Origin: Sulfuriferula sp. AH1
Lineage (GTDB): Bacteria; Pseudomonadota; Gammaproteobacteria; Burkholderiales; Sulfuriferulaceae
Reading direction: 5' to 3'
NCBI RefSeq assembly: GCF_002162035.1
Contig: NZ_CP021138.1
Span: 2,108,001-2,172,000 of the forward strand
Length of the DNA stretch: 64,000 bases
Program-made: the position numbers and the translations under genes
Notes under the pieces: generated by a model
Database searches by the model: none
What the model was told of the DNA's origin: nothing
The model's input: the letters and a program-made list of their open reading frames with translations, nothing else
Shown here: piece by piece, positions 1 through 8,991 of the stretch
How positions within the stretch are numbered: position 1 is the stretch's first letter
Layout: each line of letters opens with the position of its first letter

Positions 1-1256
1 TTTTCGCGGGTGATCATCTGTCCGGGCAAAAGCGTGGTACCCCAGCGGAAGCCGGGTGAGAATGCGATCTCGGCGTCCTTGACCTGCATCAGGGCTTCGA
101 CGATCAGCTGATCCCAGGTTCCATTGAAATTGCCGCGCCGGTAGAGCAACTCCCGGCTCTCTGCGATGGGTTCCTGCAGGCGCGAGGCGAACGGCGCGCG
201 CACCCGGTCAATGACCGCCTGCATATCCGGGTCGGCAGGCAGCAATTCCGAAAACACCGGTAGCAGATGGTAGCGGTAATCGGCCACCCGCCCGTGCTTG
301 ACGTCAAAATCGATTACGGCAAGGAATTTCCCATGAGAGCCGGCATTGGTGACGATGGTCTTGCCGCCCGCATTCCGCACCACGCTCGGCACCGGCACAC
401 CGTCGTGGGTGTGACCGCCCAGAATCATGTCGATGCCGGTTATGCGCGTGGCCAGTTTAAGGTCGATATCCATCCCGTTGTGCGAGAGCAGGACGACGAC
501 TTGCGCGCCTTTGCTGCGCGCCTGATCGACCACCGCCTGAAGATGCATCTCGTCGATGCCGAAGTCCCAGCCGGGGACGAACTGCTCACCGTTCGCCATC
601 GGTGTATAGGGGAACGCCTGCCCGATGATCGCAACCGGGATACCGTTCTGCTCACGCATGACATACGCATCAAAAACCGGCGAATCATCCTTGCCCGCGA
701 TGTTCTGAGCGATGAAAGCGATCTTGTCCTTGAAGTCGTTGCGCACGACATGCAGCACACGCTCTGCGCCATGGCTGAACTCCCAGTGCCCGGTCATGAT
801 ATCGACGCCCAGCGCCAGCGATGCTTCCACCATATCCTGTCCCGCCGTCCACAGGGCCGTGGCCGATCCCTGCCAGCTGTCGCCCCCGTCCAGCAGCAAA
901 GCCTTGGGGCGGTCGGCCTTGAGGCGCTTGACCAGACTGGCGAGATGCGCGAAACCGCCTACCTTGCCGTAAGCCCGCGCCGCCGCGTCAAAATTCAGAT
1001 GCGAGAACGCATAAGCCTGCCGGCTGCCGGGCTGAATGCCGTATGCGTCCAGCAGCGGCATGCCGACCAGATGCGGCACTTTCCCCTCGGTGCTGCCGAC
1101 GCCCAGATTGATGCTGGGTTCGCGATAATAAATGGGCAGCAACTGGGCGTGACAGTCGGTGTAATGCAACAGACTGACGTTGCCGAAAGCAGGAATATCG
1201 TAAAGCTGCTCCGCGCTATTGGGCGCGTTCGCATCGGTGGGGACATAAATTTCCAT
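1..1256 (-). CDS. soxB: SoxB thiosulfohydrolase (C-terminus beyond window)
   Basis: SoxB is the dimanganese hydrolase of the Sox system that releases sulfate from sulfur-loaded SoxYZ. The first 418 residues are present and the gene runs off the window edge; family members are about 560 aa. The metallophosphoesterase motifs are intact: TDCHAQ (D34, H36), GGDSWQGS, GHWEF, SHNGMD and GGHTHDG. The ATG at 1256 has a strong GAGGAG site five bases upstream. In this frame a TGA lies about 60 bases upstream, so the protein starts directly in the mature part with no twin-arginine signal, although known SoxB proteins are Tat-exported. It is the last visible gene of the tsdBA-oxidase run, 77 bases after a small membrane protein gene. 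Family identity is very secure; location in the cell is open. Confidence 0.93.
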   Translation of the reverse strand, partial: MEIYVPTDANAPNSAEQLYDIPAFGNVSLLHYTDCHAQLLPIYYREPSINLGVGSTEGKVPHLVGMPLLDAYGIQPGSRQAYAFSHLNFDAAARAYGKVGGFAHLASLVKRLKADRPKALLLDGGDSWQGSATALWTAGQDMVEASLALGVDIMTGHWEFSHGAERVLHVVRNDFKDKIAFIAQNIAGKDDSPVFDAYVMREQNGIPVAIIGQAFPYTPMANGEQFVPGWDFGIDEMHLQAVVDQARSKGAQVVVLLSHNGMDIDLKLATRITGIDMILGGHTHDGVPVPSVVRNAGGKTIVTNAGSHGKFLAVIDFDVKHGRVADYRYHLLPVFSELLPADPDMQAVIDRVRAPFASRLQEPIAESRELLYRRGNFNGTWDQLIVEALMQVKDAEIAFSPGFRWGTTLLPGQMITRE

Positions 1257-1333
1257 TCTGACTCCTCGTACCGGGAAGGCCGGTTTCAACAGCAGCGCGC
1301 GTATGCAATCGCCGCCTGCTCACGCACATTGCG

Positions 1334-1522
1334 TCATTCATCATCTCCGTCCGTTCGGGCAATACCCTTTTCACTGCGGACGGCACGTTCGAACATTTCA
1401 TCGCGTTCCAGCATGGTGTATTTGGGTTTCTCGGCCCACGCGCGGAATGCGGACGAAATGAACCATACGCCTGTGAGCAATACAATCAGGACAACGATGG
1501 CACCGACAAGCGCTGACATCAT
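1334..1522 (-). CDS. Small single-TM protein, CcoQ-like position
   Basis: A 62-aa protein with one strong N-terminal membrane helix (about residues 4-25, Val/Leu/Ile-rich) followed by a charged cytoplasmic tail. Its start overlaps the stop of the triheme cytochrome gene by four bases (ATGA), so it is translationally coupled to the oxidase. Small one-helix subunits (CcoQ) and assembly factors (CcoS) accompany cbb3 oxidases, and the position suggests such a role. The sequence does not clearly match either family, so I give no symbol. A second ATG directly follows the first. Confidence 0.75.
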   Translation of the reverse strand: MMSALVGAIVVLIVLLTGVWFISSAFRAWAEKPKYTMLERDEMFERAVRSEKGIARTDGDDE

Positions 1523-2778
1523 GGCTGCCGCCCCGCAGCGGGTTTGAACAGGCTGCGCACGAAGGCACTCACCGCCTGCCTGTCTGCCGGCGCAAGCTGA
1601 TGCCAGGGCGGCATGCTGGCGCCGGGAACCCCGTTATCCAGCGCATCGAGTATCAGCGCCGTATCAGGCCGGGCTTCGGTAAAATCGGCAGGGCGCGGCA
1701 GCAACGCGATGCTGGCGGGGCCGTCACCCTTGCCTTGTTCACCGTGACAGTTCAGGCAATTCTCCGCATAGACCACGGCACCGCGGGACAGCACATTGAC
1801 CGGCGCCTGCGCCGGATCGTCCGCCCCGGTATGAAACGACTGCACATAAGCCGCCAGACTGGCGAGATCGTTGACGGGGAGATCGCGCCAGGCCGGCATC
1901 GCGGAGCCTGGCACGCCATTCCACAAGATATACGCCAGCCCCTTGACTGTAAACTGCTGCCGCCGCAGATCGGCTGGTTTGGGCGACAGCCCCGCTGCAG
2001 CCGGTCCATTGCCATCACCATTGCCACCGTGACAGCCTGCGCAATTCTGTGCGAACAGGGTACGTCCGCGTGTGAGCAGCTGCGCGCGCGCCGGTACGCC
2101 ATTTACCAGATCCGGCGCTACGTCGGCGATCCTTGCCTGATTCGGGTGGATAAAAGGCGTAGCGCAGATGCTCGAAATCTCCATCTGCATGGCCGGATCC
2201 AGCCCCTCATCGGTGACAGTGCCTGTCCCCGCACCAGACTGCCGCGCACGACCCAGCGTATGCAGATAAGCCAGCAGATCGGAAGCAGCAGCAGTCGGAC
2301 GGTCGGGGCGGCCATTGAACAGCCACGGGAACCCCGGCATCACCGAATCGGGAACGATCCAGCGCGGACTATACAGGTGCGTGAGCTGCCAGTCATCGCT
2401 GCGGACGCTGGCCTCGCGCGCAAGATCGGGACCTATGCGCCGTGTTCCCCACAGTTGCGGATAATCGTAACCTGTTTCCCATGCTGCCGTGGGCGGCCCC
2501 CAGTGCCGCACGTCGGTAAACAGAAAACGCACCTGCTGGGTATGGCACAGCGCACAGCCCAGGCTGGCATAGACGCGGCGGCCGCGAAGTTCGGCGGCAG
2601 TGTAATTCGGCATGGGCGCCGGGCCATGCACGCCCATCGTCTTCGCCAGACGCCATCCGGGCAACACCCCCAAGACGACAAACGAGAGCAGGAAGAAACC
2701 GATGCCGGCGACGAAAACCAGCAGATACGCCAGGCCGAACCAGCGCTGCGGCTCCAGCCTGGATTGATGGATTGCCAT
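1519..2778 (-). CDS. ccoO: Triheme cytochrome c, CcoO-CcoP-like fusion
   Basis: Membrane-anchored cytochrome c subunit of a cbb3-like oxidase, 419 aa. One N-terminal membrane helix (about 14-38) precedes a CcoO-type domain: CALCHTQQVR (C75, C78, H79), then WGTRRIGPDLA, SDDW and the ligand Met in DSVMPGFPW (M147), all CcoO hallmarks. Two further class I cytochrome domains follow, CAGCH (246-250, Met294) and CLNCH (341-345, Met389), resembling the two hemes of CcoP. CcoO and CcoP are normally separate proteins; here one polypeptide carries all three hemes and CcoP's own anchor is absent. The ATG at 2778 lies one base after the stop of the ccoN-like gene. An upstream in-frame start would overlap that gene by 110 bases and is unlikely. 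It would pass electrons from soluble or TsdB cytochromes to the CcoN-like subunit. Confidence 0.88.
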   Translation of the reverse strand: MAIHQSRLEPQRWFGLAYLLVFVAGIGFFLLSFVVLGVLPGWRLAKTMGVHGPAPMPNYTAAELRGRRVYASLGCALCHTQQVRFLFTDVRHWGPPTAAWETGYDYPQLWGTRRIGPDLAREASVRSDDWQLTHLYSPRWIVPDSVMPGFPWLFNGRPDRPTAAASDLLAYLHTLGRARQSGAGTGTVTDEGLDPAMQMEISSICATPFIHPNQARIADVAPDLVNGVPARAQLLTRGRTLFAQNCAGCHGGNGDGNGPAAAGLSPKPADLRRQQFTVKGLAYILWNGVPGSAMPAWRDLPVNDLASLAAYVQSFHTGADDPAQAPVNVLSRGAVVYAENCLNCHGEQGKGDGPASIALLPRPADFTEARPDTALILDALDNGVPGASMPPWHQLAPADRQAVSAFVRSLFKPAAGRQP

Positions 2779-2779
2779 C

Positions 2780-4249
2780 TCAGCCACCAGCCGCCTGAGG
2801 CGCCGCTGCGCCCATGTGAAAACTGCGCTTGCCGGTGCCGGCATGACGATTGACTGCACCGGCGAACATGCCCGCGATAAACGCCGCAAATCCCAGCAGC
2901 AAAGGTATTGCAGTGGCTGCGCGGACCAGCCAGTAAATACGCGAATCGCGCACCGAATCCATCCACGGCGCCGTACTGTTCCATAACCTACCCTGCATCA
3001 GCCCTGCCATCGTCAGATCGACGAACATGACCCCAAGGCCGAACAGGATCAGCCAGTAAGCGAGATGCATGTAGCCCGAATGATAACGGCAACCCGCACT
3101 GCGCTCACAGACATGCGCGATGCCGCCCAGGGCGCCGAAGGTGGCGAAACCCAGCATCGCCAGATGCGAGTGGCCGATGACCCAATCGGTAAAATGAATG
3201 TAGCGCTGCATCGGCATCAGCGCCTGAAGCGAGCCTTGCAGGCTGACGACAAGGTAGATCACCACGCTCGTCCATACAAAAAGCAGCGGGGCGTCACGCC
3301 TGACCCGCGCACCCTGGCCGCGCAGCGACATCAGCAGATTGAATACCACGATGATCACGTCGATACCCAGAATGACCGATGCGGCGATGGCCGCGCGCTG
3401 GGTGTCCATCGGTATGGACGAATAGATGTAGTGATGCGTGCCGTTAAGCGGGTAAACGAAAAACAGCAGCCAGAAACCCAGCATCGAAAGAAAATGGCTG
3501 TAGATGGGCTCCCCGGTGCGTACCGGAAATACATAATAGGCGATCGCGACGACCAGGGGTGTCACATACAAGCCGATGGCGTCGTGTATCCATAACCCGC
3601 TGAATGCGGCACCAATCGCGCCGGGCACCAGCATCGGCACCAGACTGCCCACCGGAAAAGCGAGAAGGGTGAATACCAGTGCGCCGATGATATACCACGA
3701 CGTCACATAGATGCCGTCCGGATTAGGCCTGCGCGCCAGCGGCGGGATGAATTGCAACGCCGTCAATATCAGGCAGGCTTCGGTCACCAGATTGACTGCC
3801 AGCGGGAATTCCGTCCATTCGAGCGGCTTGATCGCCCACAGATAATCAGGCAGGTTGATGAGGACGACCGCCCAACCCAGCGCGACCACAGCGAGATTCC
3901 ATAATACGAACAGCCACCATCCCAGCACGCTGCTCATCACCGGGCGCCCGGCCAGACGCGGCACGGCAAAATACAGAAACGCCAGGAACGCATTGCCGAG
4001 CCAGCCGAACAGGATGCCCTGGGTATGATCCGCGCGCACCGAACCCCAGGTATCCCACACATGCCCGCTCAGAAAGTCCGGATCGACCAGCTTGATGGCG
4101 GCGACCGTGCCGAACAACGCAGCGATCAGCAAACTCGCCACCACTGCATAGGCATGGGCTCGCATCAGGGCAGCCTCGACAGGCGCGACCTTCGCACCCG
4201 TCACAAAACTGAGCGACGGCCCGTTCCGATGTCCGGCATCGTGTTGCAT
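2780..4249 (-). CDS. ccoN: cbb3-like heme-copper oxidase subunit I
   Basis: Catalytic membrane subunit of a C-family heme-copper oxygen reductase, 489 aa, about 12 membrane helices. Ligands match Pseudomonas stutzeri CcoN with constant offset (+15): low-spin heme His75 and His362, heme b3 His360, CuB His222, His272 and His273. The cross-link tyrosine is present (Y266, equivalent to Y251), which argues for O2 reduction and against NO reduction. The position equivalent to the conserved Glu323 is Gln (Q338, in SLQGS). The start is taken as the ATG at 4249, sharing its A with the tsdA stop; a GTG one codon earlier is possible. The downstream neighbour encodes the cytochrome c subunit. The direct coupling to tsdA suggests thiosulfate as electron source. 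Confidence 0.9.
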   Translation of the reverse strand: MQHDAGHRNGPSLSFVTGAKVAPVEAALMRAHAYAVVASLLIAALFGTVAAIKLVDPDFLSGHVWDTWGSVRADHTQGILFGWLGNAFLAFLYFAVPRLAGRPVMSSVLGWWLFVLWNLAVVALGWAVVLINLPDYLWAIKPLEWTEFPLAVNLVTEACLILTALQFIPPLARRPNPDGIYVTSWYIIGALVFTLLAFPVGSLVPMLVPGAIGAAFSGLWIHDAIGLYVTPLVVAIAYYVFPVRTGEPIYSHFLSMLGFWLLFFVYPLNGTHHYIYSSIPMDTQRAAIAASVILGIDVIIVVFNLLMSLRGQGARVRRDAPLLFVWTSVVIYLVVSLQGSLQALMPMQRYIHFTDWVIGHSHLAMLGFATFGALGGIAHVCERSAGCRYHSGYMHLAYWLILFGLGVMFVDLTMAGLMQGRLWNSTAPWMDSVRDSRIYWLVRAATAIPLLLGFAAFIAGMFAGAVNRHAGTGKRSFHMGAAAPQAAGG

Positions 4250-5247
4250 CACCTTCTCTTATTATGCGGTGCGCTATTCGGAGTTCCCTTGCCCAGTTGC
4301 TGCCCGTTCACCGTAAGTCCGTACATGCTGTCGGGCGAATCGTGATATTTTGCGCGGGTCTCGGCGAGATTGCCGTTGAAACGCGGATCCTGCGGACGTT
4401 CGTGACTGTCCATGAAGGTCGCCACATCCCATGCCTGCTGATCGGTCAGCGTACCGCCCAGACCCAGCGGCATATTGGCCTTGATGAAACCCGCTGCATT
4501 CTTGATGCTGCCCATGCCGGCACCCCAGTTAAAGGATTTCTCGCCCCATAACGCAGGGAACACGGTCCGGCCGTTGGCATCGACCTGACCGGCCCCGTCC
4601 GCGCCGTGACACACGGCACAATGCTGTTCGAACACTTGCTGGCCACGTGCATAATCCCGCGGCAATGGTGGCTTGGCCACCTTGGGATAACCCCGGCCCG
4701 GCAGCTTTGAATTGATAGTCGCACCACTCGCCAGCCAGTACGAATAGGTTTCCAGCGCCACCAGCACAGGGTCGCCAAGCGGCGGCGCTTTGCCGTTCAT
4801 GCTGAATTTAAAGCATCCCTGTATGCGCTCGGCATAGGTATTGACGTGCTTGTTCTTGCTGCGATAGGCGGGGTAAGCGACATAAGCTGCCCACAATGGC
4901 GCTGAATTGGCGAGACGGCCCGCGTCCAGATGGCAGCTGGCGCAACGCAGATTGCTGTTCGGACTTACATACTGGCTGGCAGCGCGTCCCGTATTCTCGA
5001 AGATATCCTTGCCCATTTGCACGACCTTGCCGAATTCATCCTGGGGCATGTCCTGATCGGCTGGCGGCTGAAACAGGGCCGGTTTGGCATTTGCCGTGGC
5101 AGCCGACGGCGCCTGCGGCTTGTGAACCGGAGTGTCGGCAGGATTCCGGGCTGGCAGCGGTTGCGCGGCTCCGGCCGTGAGGATGATGCCGCCTGCAGTG
5201 ACAGCAAGAGCAGCGACGGTCAATCCGGCAGCTAACTGAGTCTTCAT
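4249..5247 (-). CDS. tsdA: Thiosulfate dehydrogenase TsdA (tetrathionate-forming)
   Basis: Periplasmic diheme cytochrome that couples two thiosulfates to tetrathionate. The 332-aa protein has an N-terminal signal (hydrophobic 5-27) and a Pro/Ala-rich linker. Heme 1 is CASCH (102-106) followed by LDAG. Cys145 in RIQGCFKFSMNG matches the unusual cysteine axial ligand that marks TsdA. Heme 2 is CAVCH (210-214). An ATG with GGAGGA seven bases upstream overlaps the tsdB stop (ATGA), and the gene's own stop overlaps the oxidase start. TsdB-TsdA pairing is known from Thiomonas and Sideroxydans; direct coupling to an oxidase gene is the uncommon part. The reaction is reversible in some homologues, but the oxidase context favours oxidation. 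Confidence 0.92.
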   Translation of the reverse strand: MKTQLAAGLTVAALAVTAGGIILTAGAAQPLPARNPADTPVHKPQAPSAATANAKPALFQPPADQDMPQDEFGKVVQMGKDIFENTGRAASQYVSPNSNLRCASCHLDAGRLANSAPLWAAYVAYPAYRSKNKHVNTYAERIQGCFKFSMNGKAPPLGDPVLVALETYSYWLASGATINSKLPGRGYPKVAKPPLPRDYARGQQVFEQHCAVCHGADGAGQVDANGRTVFPALWGEKSFNWGAGMGSIKNAAGFIKANMPLGLGGTLTDQQAWDVATFMDSHERPQDPRFNGNLAETRAKYHDSPDSMYGLTVNGQQLGKGTPNSAPHNKRR

Positions 5248-5903
5248 GGCTTAGTCCTCCCATTGGCAGTGCTCACGGGCAATGTTGCGAAGTACGCGGC
5301 AACATCACGGATATCGGTCGCGGACAACTTGGATGCGATGACTTTCATCAACCCCAGGGGACCAGGAGCACGCGCGCCCTGCTGCCAGGCATGCAGCTGG
5401 TTCTCGATGTATATCGAAGACTGTCCGGCCAGCGCCGGGAAAGTGGCGCCCACGCCCGCCCCGGTCGCGCCGTGACACTGGATGCAGGCCGGCAATCCTT
5501 GCGCCCAGCGGCCCTGGAGCGCCAGACGTTCGCCCGCAGGATTCGCGTGAGGCGTTGCACCTGCCGCAGTGGCGGGGGCAGGCAGGCTGGCGTAATAGCC
5601 CGCAACCGCGGCCCGCTCCTCCGCGCTCAGGGATTTGGCGATGGGCGACATCACCGGATTGACGCGCTGCCCTTTCGCCAATGCGACAAGCTGAGTCTGC
5701 AGATAGCCGGCGTTCATCCCGGCCAGCCGGGGGAACCCGCTTGCGGCCATGCCTTCACCGTTGGCACCGTGGCAGGAAGCGCAGGCCGGCGTACCGTGAT
5801 CGGTACCACGTTGCGCGATGGCAGCACCGTCGGCAAATGCGGGATTAATCATCCCGGCGGATGCAAGACCGACCAACGAAATGAGAGTCAGATTCGGACG
5901 CAT
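5244..5903 (-). CDS. tsdB: Diheme cytochrome c4-type electron acceptor TsdB
   Basis: A 219-aa secreted cytochrome with a signal peptide ending near AFA (residue 24) and two similar class I cytochrome halves: CASCH (41-45) and CIQCH (140-144), each followed by a G-A-x-G stretch and a FPxLAG motif. This is the cytochrome c4 fold. Placed directly before tsdA with a four-base overlap, it matches TsdB, which takes electrons from TsdA and hands them to terminal oxidases. A strong AAGGAGGG site precedes the ATG. It is the first gene of the coupled run; 73 bases separate it from the alpha/beta hydrolase stop, where a promoter could sit, although I see no clear -35/-10 pair. Confidence 0.9.
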   Translation of the reverse strand: MRPNLTLISLVGLASAGMINPAFADGAAIAQRGTDHGTPACASCHGANGEGMAASGFPRLAGMNAGYLQTQLVALAKGQRVNPVMSPIAKSLSAEERAAVAGYYASLPAPATAAGATPHANPAGERLALQGRWAQGLPACIQCHGATGAGVGATFPALAGQSSIYIENQLHAWQQGARAPGPLGLMKVIASKLSATDIRDVAAYFATLPVSTANGRTKP

Positions 5904-5976: not shown

Positions 5977-6801
5977 TCAGGCCCGGATAAACGCCAGCAG
6001 ATCGGCGCTGAGCTGCGCCTTATGGGTGTCCGTGAGGCCGTGCGGCGCGCCCGGATAAATCTTCAGGGTCGCATTCTTCACCAGCTTCGACGAATGCAGT
6101 GCCGACGCGCCGATAGGCACGATCTGGTCATCGTCGCCGTGCACAATCAGCGTCGGCACGTCGATTTTTTTGAGATCTTCGGTGAAATCCGTTTCCGAGA
6201 ACGCCTTGATGCAATCCAGGGTGTTTTTATGCCCCGCCTGCATGCCCTGTAGCCAGAACGAGGCCATCGTGCCTTCCGAAACCCGCGAACGCGGCCTGTT
6301 GGCACCATAGAACGGGCCACTGGCGAGATCCTTGTAGTATTGCGAACGGTCATCGATGGAGTGCTGGCGTATCTCGTCGAACGTCTCCATCGGCAAACCG
6401 CCGGGGTTTTCCGGCGTTTTCAGCATCAGCGGCGGCACGGCGGAGACCAGCGCGACCTTGGACACCCGTTTGCTGCCATGCCGGCCGATATAACGTGCAA
6501 TCTCGCCGCCGCCCGCCGAGAATCCTATCAATACGGCATCCTGCAGATTCAGCGTCTCCATCAGTTCGGCGAGATCATCGGCATAAGTATCCATGTCATT
6601 ATAATTCCACGACTGGCTCGAGCGGCCGTGGCCGCGGCGATCATGCGCGATGCAGCGATAGCCGTTGGAGGCCAGATAGACCATATGGCCCTCCCAGCTG
6701 TCCGCGTTGAGCGGCCAGCCATGACTGAATACCACGGGCTGCCCGACACCCCAATCCTTGTAATAGATGCATGCTCCGTCCTGCGTTGTGATTCTGCTCA
6801 T
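5977..6801 (-). CDS. Alpha/beta hydrolase, non-heme chloroperoxidase type
   Basis: A 274-aa alpha/beta hydrolase related to cofactor-free haloperoxidases and esterases, probably cytoplasmic as no signal is seen. The start region [17 protein letters not shown] is typical of the group. Motifs: oxyanion HGW, nucleophile elbow GFSAGG, acid HGDDDQIVP and the catalytic His in GAPHGL, so the triad is complete. The ATG at 6801 has AAGGAAG five bases upstream; an ATG six codons earlier lacks a site. It lies between katE and tsdB on the same strand. Its substrate cannot be told from sequence. Co-location with a catalase might suggest oxidative stress, but this is inference only. Confidence 0.9.
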
Positions 6802-6879
6802 TCTCGCTTCCTTGTTCATTTATCGGAAAGGCCGCCCTTCCCTGTCTCCGTTCATATTTACGATATGCCCTTACAGTGG

Positions 6880-8991
6880 CTACGCCAGAATTCGTACCGA
6901 CTTTTCCCGGGCCCATTGCCGCGTTTTTGCCGCAGCGATGAATGCATCGATATCGCTGGCCGCCACGACGCCGGCGTCCGCTTTGATATTCGCCATTTTC
7001 ACAAGCGCTTGGCCGCCTTTGTCAAAGACAATGGCCTTGAGATGACCATACGCATCGCGTATGAAGTCGATGGCGGCAGCTTCCCCCGCCAGGGTTTTTG
7101 CGCCCTCGTCGGAAAGAATGACGCCGACTGCATCAAACAGCACCGAAGGCGTGCCTGCAAGCTGTCCGTCTGCCGCGAGCATCGAGCCATCGGCCAGCTT
7201 CGCGCCGCCCACTTTGAGCGCAACGATCCTGACAGTAGCACCGGCATCGGTCGCAGCCTTTTTGAGCTTGCTGACTGCGGCAGCATCGGAACCATCCGCG
7301 ACAAGGATGCCGATGACGCGCCCCATCAGCGTATCTTTCATCTTGCCAATGGTCCGCAAGGCAGGCGAAGGCGGCAGCTTCAGGATCGGCGCTGCGGTCG
7401 GCGGCGCCTCCGGCATTGCGTCCAGCGCCAGACCTCCAGCAACGCGTCTGGCGAGATCGGCGTCGATATGCAGCAAGTGGCCGACCATCGCCTTGCGTAC
7501 ATGTACATGCTCGACCTTGGAGAGCTCGAACACCAACGCCGAGGCGATATGGGTCTGTTCATGCGGGGTCTGGCTGATATAGAACTGACGCGCCTGACTG
7601 TAATGATCGGCAAAACGCTCGGGCCGGATGCGGCCTTTCTCGCCGGTTTCGGTAACCGCAGCGCTGCGGAACCCCTGCGGCGTTTCACGCGGCGAGTCCC
7701 CCGACAGGGAATTCGGTTCGTACGCCACGCGGCCGGCCGGTTGCGTCATCTGCATGTGGCCGTCGCGCTGCTGATTGGCGAACGGGCATTTGGGCATATT
7801 GACCGGAATCTGGTGAAAATTGGGCGAGCCCAGACGCGAGAGCTGGGTATCGAGATAGGAAAACAGCCGCCCCTGCAGTAACGGATCATTGGAGAAATCG
7901 ATGCCGGGCACGATATTGGCCGGGCAGTAAGCCACCTGTTCGGTCTCGGCAAAGAAATTGTCGGGCCAGCGATCCAGCACCATGCGCCCGATTACCTGCA
8001 AGGGCACCAGTTCTTCCGGAATCAGCTTGGTCGCGTCCAGATGATCGAAGGGGAATTTGCCCGCTTCTTCCTCGGTAAAAAGCTGGACCGCCAGTTCCCA
8101 CTCGGGATAATGGCCGGCCTCGATCGCTTCGAACATGTCACGGCGATGGAAATCCTGATCGGCGCCTGAAATCTTGACGGTCTCGTCCCAGACAGTCGAC
8201 TGCAGGCCGAGCTTGGGACGCCAGTGGAATTTGACGAAAGTCGATTCGCCGGCTGCGTTGATCAAACGGAAACTATGGATGCCGAAACCCTCGATCATGC
8301 GCAGCGAGCGCGGCAGCGTACGGTCCGACATGATCCACATTACCATGTGCATGGCTTCGGGCGTGAGCGACATGTAATCCCAGAACGTGTCATGCGCGGT
8401 TGCCGACTGCGGATAACCGCGGTCGGGTTCCATCTTTACCGCGTGGATGAGGTCGGGAAACTTGATCGCATCCTGAATGAAAAACACCGGGATGTTATTG
8501 CCGACCAGATCCCAGTTGCCTTCCCTGGTGTAAAACTTGACCGCAAACCCGCGTACGTCGCGCGGCGTGTCGACCGAACCCGCTCCGCCGGCGACTGTTG
8601 ATATGCGCGTAAATACAGGCGTCTTTTCGCCCACCTCGGTGAGGATGCGTGCAGTGGTGTACTGCTGCAGTGAGGCAGTCAGCTCGAAATACCCGTGCAC
8701 GCCGGTCGCACGCGCATGGACGATACGCTCGGGAATGCGCTCATGATCGAAATGAGTGATCTTTTCGCGGAGGATAAAATCCTCCAGCAACACCGGCCCG
8801 CGCACACCGGCTTTAAGCGAATTCTGGTTATCGGCAACCTCGACACCCTGATTCGTGGTGAGAGGCGGATGCTCGCCGCCCGCCAACTGATGCAACTCGC
8901 CGCTTGGCGCTGATTGCGAATTCTCAAGGGAAACCGGATTCTTTGACTGCCTTCCGGAACGGCCCGCTACCTTTTGATTTTCTTTGCTCAA
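6880..8991 (-). CDS. katE: Large-subunit catalase HPII type
   Basis: Monofunctional heme catalase of clade 2 (large subunit), 703 aa, degrading H2O2 in the cytoplasm. The catalytic His is in RIVHARATG (H92), the distal Asn in GNNIPVFF, and the heme-ligand Tyr in [14 protein letters not shown]. From about residue 545 to the end there is an extra DJ-1/PfpI-like domain, as in E. coli HPII. The start is a TTG with AAGGAG seven bases upstream; no ATG fits this frame. It diverges from a csbD-like stress gene across a region carrying a large palindrome, and large catalases are typically stationary-phase or general-stress genes. Confidence 0.95.

Follow-up and report, generated by a model that had tools for sequence, protein, structure and literature searches.

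Thiosulfate dehydrogenases of the TsdBA type, composed of the cytochrome TsdB and the catalytic TsdA, were reportedly described by Kurth et al. in 2016 for Thiomonas, Sideroxydans, and Marichromatium purpuratum. Because the thiosulfate/tetrathionate couple has too positive a potential for efficient quinone reduction, its electrons are expected to enter the chain at cytochrome c, and a private c-type subunit on an oxidase is a plausible acceptor there. The path from thiosulfate to O2 in tetrathionate formers is still only proposed in the available literature. For Halomonas, transfer from TsdB to a cbb3 oxidase has been put forward (PMC9237845), and in Campylobacter jejuni the TsdA-related protein CccC was reported as an electron donor to the cb-oxidase (PMC5146829). 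The "distal" cbb3 subtree (Ducluzeau et al. 2008, as cited in PMC8788666) is a second branch with another subunit composition; in Sideroxydans ES-1, distal ccoN and ccoO are up on thiosulfate while tsdAB is not, and the accessible part of that source does not link the ES-1 tsdAB genes with this distal oxidase cluster (PMC8788666). Here, a gene block from Sulfuriferula sp. AH1 is described in which tsdB, tsdA, a ccoN-like gene, a fused ccoOP gene, and a gene for a small membrane protein follow one another. It lies within the first 5,903 positions of a 64,000-nucleotide stretch of contig NZ_CP021138.1 (positions 2,108,001 to 2,172,000), hereafter the window.

The block is probably a self-contained thiosulfate:O2 oxidoreductase module that is horizontally mobile and brings a dedicated oxidase of its own. 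In the portions of the open-licence literature that were available, no operon of TsdA with an oxidase of this clade, no fused forms of the oxidase, and no plasmid carriage are described.

Linkage of TsdA to one oxidase clade

The comparison set comprised 21 non-redundant loci of the CcoN clade, namely the window locus (L034), L035, L040, L041-L049, L122, L125-L130, L142, and L143. TsdA adjoins the oxidase genes in 19 of them. When CcoN was the only query, so that loci were not selected for TsdA, all ten genome loci had a TsdA relative next to ccoN-ccoOP, whereas none of 20 control ccoN loci (19 from relatives within the order and one from AH1, taken from the better-scoring matches and not at random) had a TsdA-model match above 41 bits within 13-14 kb. 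An earlier interpretation of this DNA, here called the sequence-only reading, had placed a dedicated oxidase with TsdB-TsdA, and the neighbourhood search for tsdA beside ccoN homologues supports this. The TsdA model was built from 11 TsdAs; module TsdAs outside that set (L125-L129, L142, and L143) score 318-459 bits, and the TsdA of L040, whose frame was read only as far as a stretch of N within it, was found by tblastn. Overlaps of 4 nucleotides between tsdB and tsdA, tsdA and ccoN, and ccoN and ccoOP recur in Paraburkholderia and Acetobacteraceae. This conservation, at 19 of 21 loci, strongly supports a predicted dedicated chain from thiosulfate to oxygen.

The two exceptions, L122 in G348 and L130 in G838, carry SorA-like (471 and 445 bits) and SorB-like (72.6 and 71 bits) genes instead, which are best matches yet remain below the NCBIfam cut-offs (600 and 93 bits). 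From the TsdA side, 43 loci were fetched (L180-L222, best matches only), two of which (L209 and L210) are members of the clade; among the 41 others, one (in G229) has any ccoN within about 1.5 kb.

The CcoN tree contains 57 rows, after removal of L144 (a twin of L143), L146, and L039; its "canon" label is a score class rather than proof of a canonical enzyme, and 5 of the 20 rows so labelled have Gln at the position of Glu323. All 21 clade loci fall on one side of a branch with support 100/100. Within the clade, five TsdBA-type loci (three of Sulfuriferula and two plasmid lineages) and 14 others form sub-clades (100/99 and 99/98). The branching of the two SorAB loci, close to the base of the clade, is not resolved by the tree. 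The TsdA tree has 56 rows, including 37 TsdAs from genomes drawn regardless of oxidase; four short sequences (L193, L197, L206, and L208) were dropped. Here the linked TsdAs split into two groups (supports 100/99 and 100/100), the first of which is nested among ordinary tsdBA proteins. Constraining the linked TsdAs to one clade was rejected, at 118.8 log units worse (approximately unbiased test, p=2.6e-54). It follows that TsdA joined the oxidase twice, or that one TsdA displaced another; either origin would speak for a functional fit between TsdA and the oxidase.

Gene layout and encoded proteins

The positions of the genes are collected in Table 1. In the window, tsdB/tsdA and tsdA/ccoN overlap by 4 nucleotides each, ccoN and ccoOP are separated by 1 nucleotide, and ccoOP overlaps the small membrane protein gene by 4 nucleotides. 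The five genes are thus a tightly packed operon by their arrangement, and they are probably co-transcribed. Gene identities, order, strand, and overlaps agree with the sequence-only reading, and the positions of all genes were confirmed.

Table 1. Genes of the block and its immediate neighbours, with positions in the window
Gene	Position	Strand	Product	Evidence
catalase gene	6880-8991	-	catalase	
alpha/beta hydrolase gene	5977-6819	-	alpha/beta hydrolase	
tsdB	5244-5903	-	di-haem cytochrome c, probable TsdA electron acceptor	Pfam cytochrome c domains (two stretches), 2 CxxCH
tsdA	4249-5247	-	di-haem thiosulfate dehydrogenase (predicted)	PDB matches, haem ligands kept
ccoN-like	2780-4252	-	haem-copper oxidase catalytic subunit (predicted), distinct clade	PF00115, TIGR00780 below cut-off
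ccoOP	1519-2778 (likely start 2778)	-	mono-haem CcoO-like and di-haem CcoP-like, fused	FixO, Cytochrome_CBB3
small membrane protein gene	1334-1522	-	62 residues, probable small oxidase subunit	similar reading frame behind ccoOP in relatives
soxB	1-1256 (ATG at 1256), 3' end beyond window	-	second SoxB paralogue	TIGR04486

The hydrolase gene lies 73 nucleotides upstream of tsdB, and the catalase gene, separated from it by 60 nucleotides, lies beyond it on the same strand; the transcript may therefore begin further upstream than was earlier assumed. The catalase is of the long form, and hydrolase and catalase may share the tsdB transcript. At the other end, the remainder of soxB was read from flanking DNA (3' end at L034:11592); the gene beyond it, EarP, is convergent, so that the minus-strand run stops at soxB. 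Scans for promoter- and terminator-like sites, whose matches overall are at chance level and carry little weight, listed no minus-strand promoter-like site upstream of tsdB and no terminator-like site in the gap between the small membrane protein gene and soxB.

TsdA matches PF21342 (SoxA-TsdA_cyt-c, 30.7 bits) together with cytochrome c domains. Its top match in the PDB is 5lo9 (1e-79), which we take to be the M. purpuratum TsdBA fusion, followed by chains labelled as thiosulfate dehydrogenase, among them 4wqc and 4v2k, presumably the Allochromatium vinosum enzyme. The protein has two CxxCH motifs, and both the haem-1 Cys (C145) and the haem-2 Met (in NMPLG) align with 5lo9 and 4wqc; the haem-1 Cys motif is present in all 19 oxidase-linked TsdAs. 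It was reported for C. jejuni TsdA that both haem ligands matter for activity (PMC5146829), and the AH1 protein is predicted to convert thiosulfate to tetrathionate. TsdB orthologues sit upstream of tsdA in all five "linkA" loci, that is, in the Sulfuriferula/plasmid lineage. In the lineage that lacks TsdB, the TsdAs have an N-terminal hydrophobic helix that, by eye, looks uncleaved and could hold TsdA at the membrane.

The CcoN-like protein matches COX1 (PF00115, 207 bits) and the cbb3 CcoN structure 3mk7 (3e-32 in the PDB search), and is about 27-30% identical to the canonical-type CcoN of relatives. The oxidase is related to the NCBIfam ccoN, ccoO, and ccoP families, and it is outside these curated families. 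Residue roles and numbers used here, including the ligand roles and Glu323, are presumably those of the Pseudomonas stutzeri enzyme. The CuB and haem His residues and Tyr267 are retained in all 21 clade rows, one of which is gapped at the first His; AH1 CcoN also retains Glu148, and in one clade row the putative channel Ser is replaced by Lys. Gln stands at the Glu323 position in clade CcoN, and also in 5 of 20 control and 16 of 16 intermediate ccoN; it is common in other non-canonical ccoN and was rejected as a hallmark of the clade. The enzyme is predicted to reduce O2 and to pump protons.

The ccoOP product combines FixO (PF02433, 119 bits) and Cytochrome_CBB3 (98 bits) on a single protein with three CxxCH motifs and, by eye, an N-terminal hydrophobic helix. 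It is a tri-haem fusion whose haem count equals that of CcoO plus CcoP, which in cbb3 oxidases are separate subunits. In eight loci (L042-L049), ccoN, ccoO, and ccoP occupy one reading frame of 846-897 codons with three CxxCH motifs. Behind ccoOP, 18 of the 20 readable loci (L040 ends inside ccoOP and was left out) contain a reading frame of 56-69 codons with a hydrophobic stretch and a motif of W, R, and E-x-PK, which for the 62-residue AH1 protein is written W..(S/P)..R...E.PK; the motif alignment shows 12 of these 18 sequences. The start lies at the identical 4-nucleotide overlap in 16 of the 18 when alternative start codons are allowed, the annotated start in L142 lies later, and no such frame was found behind ccoOP in L042 and L043. 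This small protein belongs to the oxidase and not to TsdA, because it is also found behind the SorAB-linked oxidases. A CcoQ-like role would be a guess.

Taken as a working scheme, TsdA would join two thiosulfates into tetrathionate in the periplasm by means of its Cys-ligated haem 1, and haem 2 would hand the electrons on, either to TsdB (Sulfuriferula/plasmid lineage) or straight to CcoOP (TsdB-less lineage). CcoOP, anchored in the membrane, would accept them on its three c haems, presumably through direct transfer between the encoded proteins, and the divergent CcoN on which CcoOP would sit would reduce O2 to water at its haem b3-CuB site. The oxidase may thus be pictured as a branch of the cbb3 (C) family that has specialised on sulfur and has an exchangeable periplasmic donor, represented by the two TsdA lineages and, in 2 of the 21 loci, by a SorAB-like sulfite dehydrogenase. 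More tentatively, the clade may be a sulfur-dedicated oxidase subfamily that forms a physical "thiosulfate oxidase", with TsdA, alone or with TsdB, docked on CcoN-CcoOP, by-passing quinones, bc1, and soluble cytochrome c, and with an interchangeable input unit. If this is true, one plasmid-borne five-gene cassette would give a heterotroph thiosulfate-driven respiration. The module offers a defined and genetically separable candidate path in cultured AH1 and on plasmids of cultured heterotrophs, such as Paraburkholderia fungorum ATCC BAA-463 (pBIL) and Acetobacter ascendens. The clade ccoN is also a possible marker of TsdAs that work in the thiosulfate-oxidising direction, and the module would be a case of modular electron-donor swapping on one terminal oxidase.

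Distribution and competing explanations

The clade occurs in Sulfuriferula, on plasmids of Paraburkholderia and Acetobacteraceae, in Pseudohongiella-type gammaproteobacteria, and in Acidobacteriota. A search of 72,556 plasmid records with the CcoN protein at 1e-50 returned 42 records, seven of them more than 60% identical: Paraburkholderia fungorum (4), Komagataeibacter xylinus (2), and Acetobacter ascendens (1). In each of the seven, genes for two c-type cytochromes immediately precede the oxidase genes, and a small hypothetical protein is encoded after them. TsdB and TsdA were confirmed by BLAST or hidden Markov model in three of the seven; three further P. fungorum records carry the same protein accessions, and for pGX4 the assignment is by annotation only. 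Plasmid neighbours include substrate-binding proteins and DsrE and, in Paraburkholderia, also YeeE/YedE. No soxB is annotated in the plasmid flanks (8 kb in three records, at most 2.5 kb in four).

Genome searches used an 11-row CcoN model. In the phylum of the window, 12 of 398 genomes matched at 1e-60 and 2 exceeded 700 bits; in the phylum of the Terriglobia genome G502, matches came from 43 of 347 genomes, nine of them above 700 bits, three of which were already known. The order of the window gave 2 of 379 genomes at 1e-150, both from its own genus, and the genus of G348 gave 1 of 199. Within the genus of the window, 3 of 18 genomes have the module, AH1 included. Locus L042 (VFZF01000007.1, titled "Acidimicrobiia bacterium") was dropped as a representative of another phylum: its genome (G503) was among the matches from the phylum of the Terriglobia genome G502, a Vicinamibacterales record is the partner of its CcoN and TsdA in the trees, and it was counted as Acidobacteriota, with no claim made for Actinobacteria.

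Several observations weigh against a conserved and dedicated module. The module is rare (2 of 379 genomes of the order, and 2 of 398 of the phylum above 700 bits), and most sampled TsdA genes are without the clade oxidase. The immediate sister group of the clade in the CcoN tree (L131-L137, from the Acidobacteriota search) has no adjoining TsdA-model gene of comparable strength. Close relatives among the gammaproteobacteria, sharing 85-98% identity, account for six of the 21 loci, so that there are fewer than 21 independent lineages, perhaps 8-10 by our estimate. The NCBIfam equivalog cut-offs are not reached by the oxidase subunits (ccoN, TIGR00780, 154 of 583 bits; ccoO, 104 of 201; ccoP, 66 of 180), and a structure prediction for the fused oxidase of L046 from an eight-row alignment was too poor to use, with a predicted local distance difference test score of 43 and a predicted template modelling score of 0.45. 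An element with an IS91-type Y2-transposase and a tyrosine integrase splits ccoOP in the congener G013 (L035:9249-11537), and the annotation of K. xylinus pGX4 divides ccoOP into two parts; the module is therefore dispensable in some hosts and can be lost. AH1 also possesses a canonical-type cbb3 oxidase (L159) and a separate tsdBA pair without the clade oxidase (L227), and thus neither half of the module is exclusive in this organism.

The strongest competing explanation is an ordinary terminal oxidase that draws its electrons from the general cytochrome c pool of the periplasm, whose linkage to TsdA would reflect co-regulation or transfer as a "selfish operon". The patchy distribution and plasmid carriage would fit it, as would the second, canonical-type oxidase of AH1 and the canonical-type ccoNOP that also lies about 460 bp from tsdA in G229. 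However, two separate TsdA lineages are linked to this oxidase, the sole other neighbours are another periplasmic sulfur dehydrogenase, the tight gene overlaps recur, and none of the 20 other ccoN loci has TsdA, which together make an oxidase served by the general pool unlikely.

The dedicated thiosulfate:O2 module is to be separated from a broader proposal, that of the sequence-only reading, in which a single transcript unites the tetrathionate and Sox routes and SoxB acts with TsdA and the oxidase. The window part of soxB scores 614 bits over 418 residues against TIGR04486 (cut-off 550), and the whole protein 784 bits; no Pfam family reached threshold for the window part, although NCBIfam matched. 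In favour of the combination, soxB has the same orientation and starts 77 nucleotides after the small membrane protein gene, and the scan listed no terminator-like site in this gap. However, AH1 has two SoxB proteins over the cut-off, and it is the other one (905 bits) that lies beside SoxA, at G000:C1:2,545,000. In the 20 other clade loci, soxB was not found to adjoin the module (flanks differ in length, and the downstream side of L040 is not judgeable). G013 has one SoxB over the cut-off, far from the module, with none in the 19 kb around it (L035), and G003 has a second SoxB, 85% identical to that of the window, on a separate 8.5-kb contig with a different 509-residue gene directly upstream. 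A second paralogue found beside the module in AH1 alone, soxB is best regarded as a local neighbour. The sequence to the left of position 1 had been proposed as a place to look for further sox genes, and none follows soxB before the convergent EarP. Of a soxXYZAB cluster, only soxB is found here; soxX, soxY, and soxZ were not searched for. The available text of the AH1 genome paper names soxXYZAB and a sulfide:quinone oxidoreductase and leaves the module genes unmentioned (PMC5552976). A transcript shared with soxB is possible, rather than a conserved design, and joint action of SoxB with TsdA and the oxidase is quite improbable. The dedicated thiosulfate-to-oxygen half of the earlier proposal is upheld by TsdA at 19 of 21 loci, and its Sox half is not.

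Finally, that the CcoN-like protein is a nitric oxide reductase or an inactive relative and TsdA a tetrathionate reductase is barely credible: the ccoN family score is low (154 of 583 bits), Gln replaces Glu323 (P. stutzeri numbering), and TsdA enzymes can run both ways (PMC5146829), but CcoN retains its active-site Tyr and its CuB and haem ligands, on which grounds a nitric oxide reductase or inactive oxidase was rejected, the Gln is not specific to the clade, and a reductase pair would not account for the pairing with sulfite dehydrogenase.

Related loci and comparison with described systems

Some other sulfur-related loci were also observed. AH1 carries, at G000:C1:1125000-1139000 (L226), a tsdB-like gene, two tandem TsdA-model genes (243 and 210 bits), a SulP sulfate permease gene, and genes for two SoxB-like proteins, of which one matches 5'-nucleotidase domains of Pfam. 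In G229, from another order of the class, tsdA is located about 460 bp upstream of canonical-type ccoN-ccoO-ccoP (L223), another way in which TsdA and oxidase genes are neighbours. A cbb3-like oxidase that is more distant and has a three-CxxCH subunit is found near a metallophosphoesterase gene in L123 and on plasmids of Phyllobacterium and Sinorhizobium meliloti (L145 and L146); its neighbours in L123 are a SoxA/TsdA-type mono-haem protein and a flavocytochrome c flavoprotein, and in L145 SoxY and SoxZ. These loci suggest further sulfur-linked oxidase branches, related to the module clade but separate from it. In L139-L141, from the Acidobacteriota search, the gene immediately preceding a divergent ccoN and a mono-haem ccoO encodes a protein of roughly 600 residues with seven CxxCH motifs.

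Compared with cbb3 oxidases of the CcoNO(Q)P type, the module shares the CcoN kinship, the haem and CuB ligands, the Tyr, the mono- and di-haem c domains, and a small membrane protein in the operon. It differs in that CcoO and CcoP are fused, or all three subunits are joined in one chain of 846-912 residues in other lineages, in the Gln of its CcoN in place of Glu323, and in having a sulfur dehydrogenase within the operon. The distal cbb3 oxidases are alike in being a second cbb3 branch with differing subunits. C. jejuni CccC is likewise a TsdA relative that feeds a cbb3-type oxidase; however, it has Met at the position of the haem-1 Cys and no clear enzyme activity, whereas all 19 module TsdAs retain the Cys. 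With the known TsdBA systems, the module has in common a di-haem TsdB, a TsdA with a Cys-ligated haem, and the same gene order, but its tsdBA genes have an oxidase of their own behind them.

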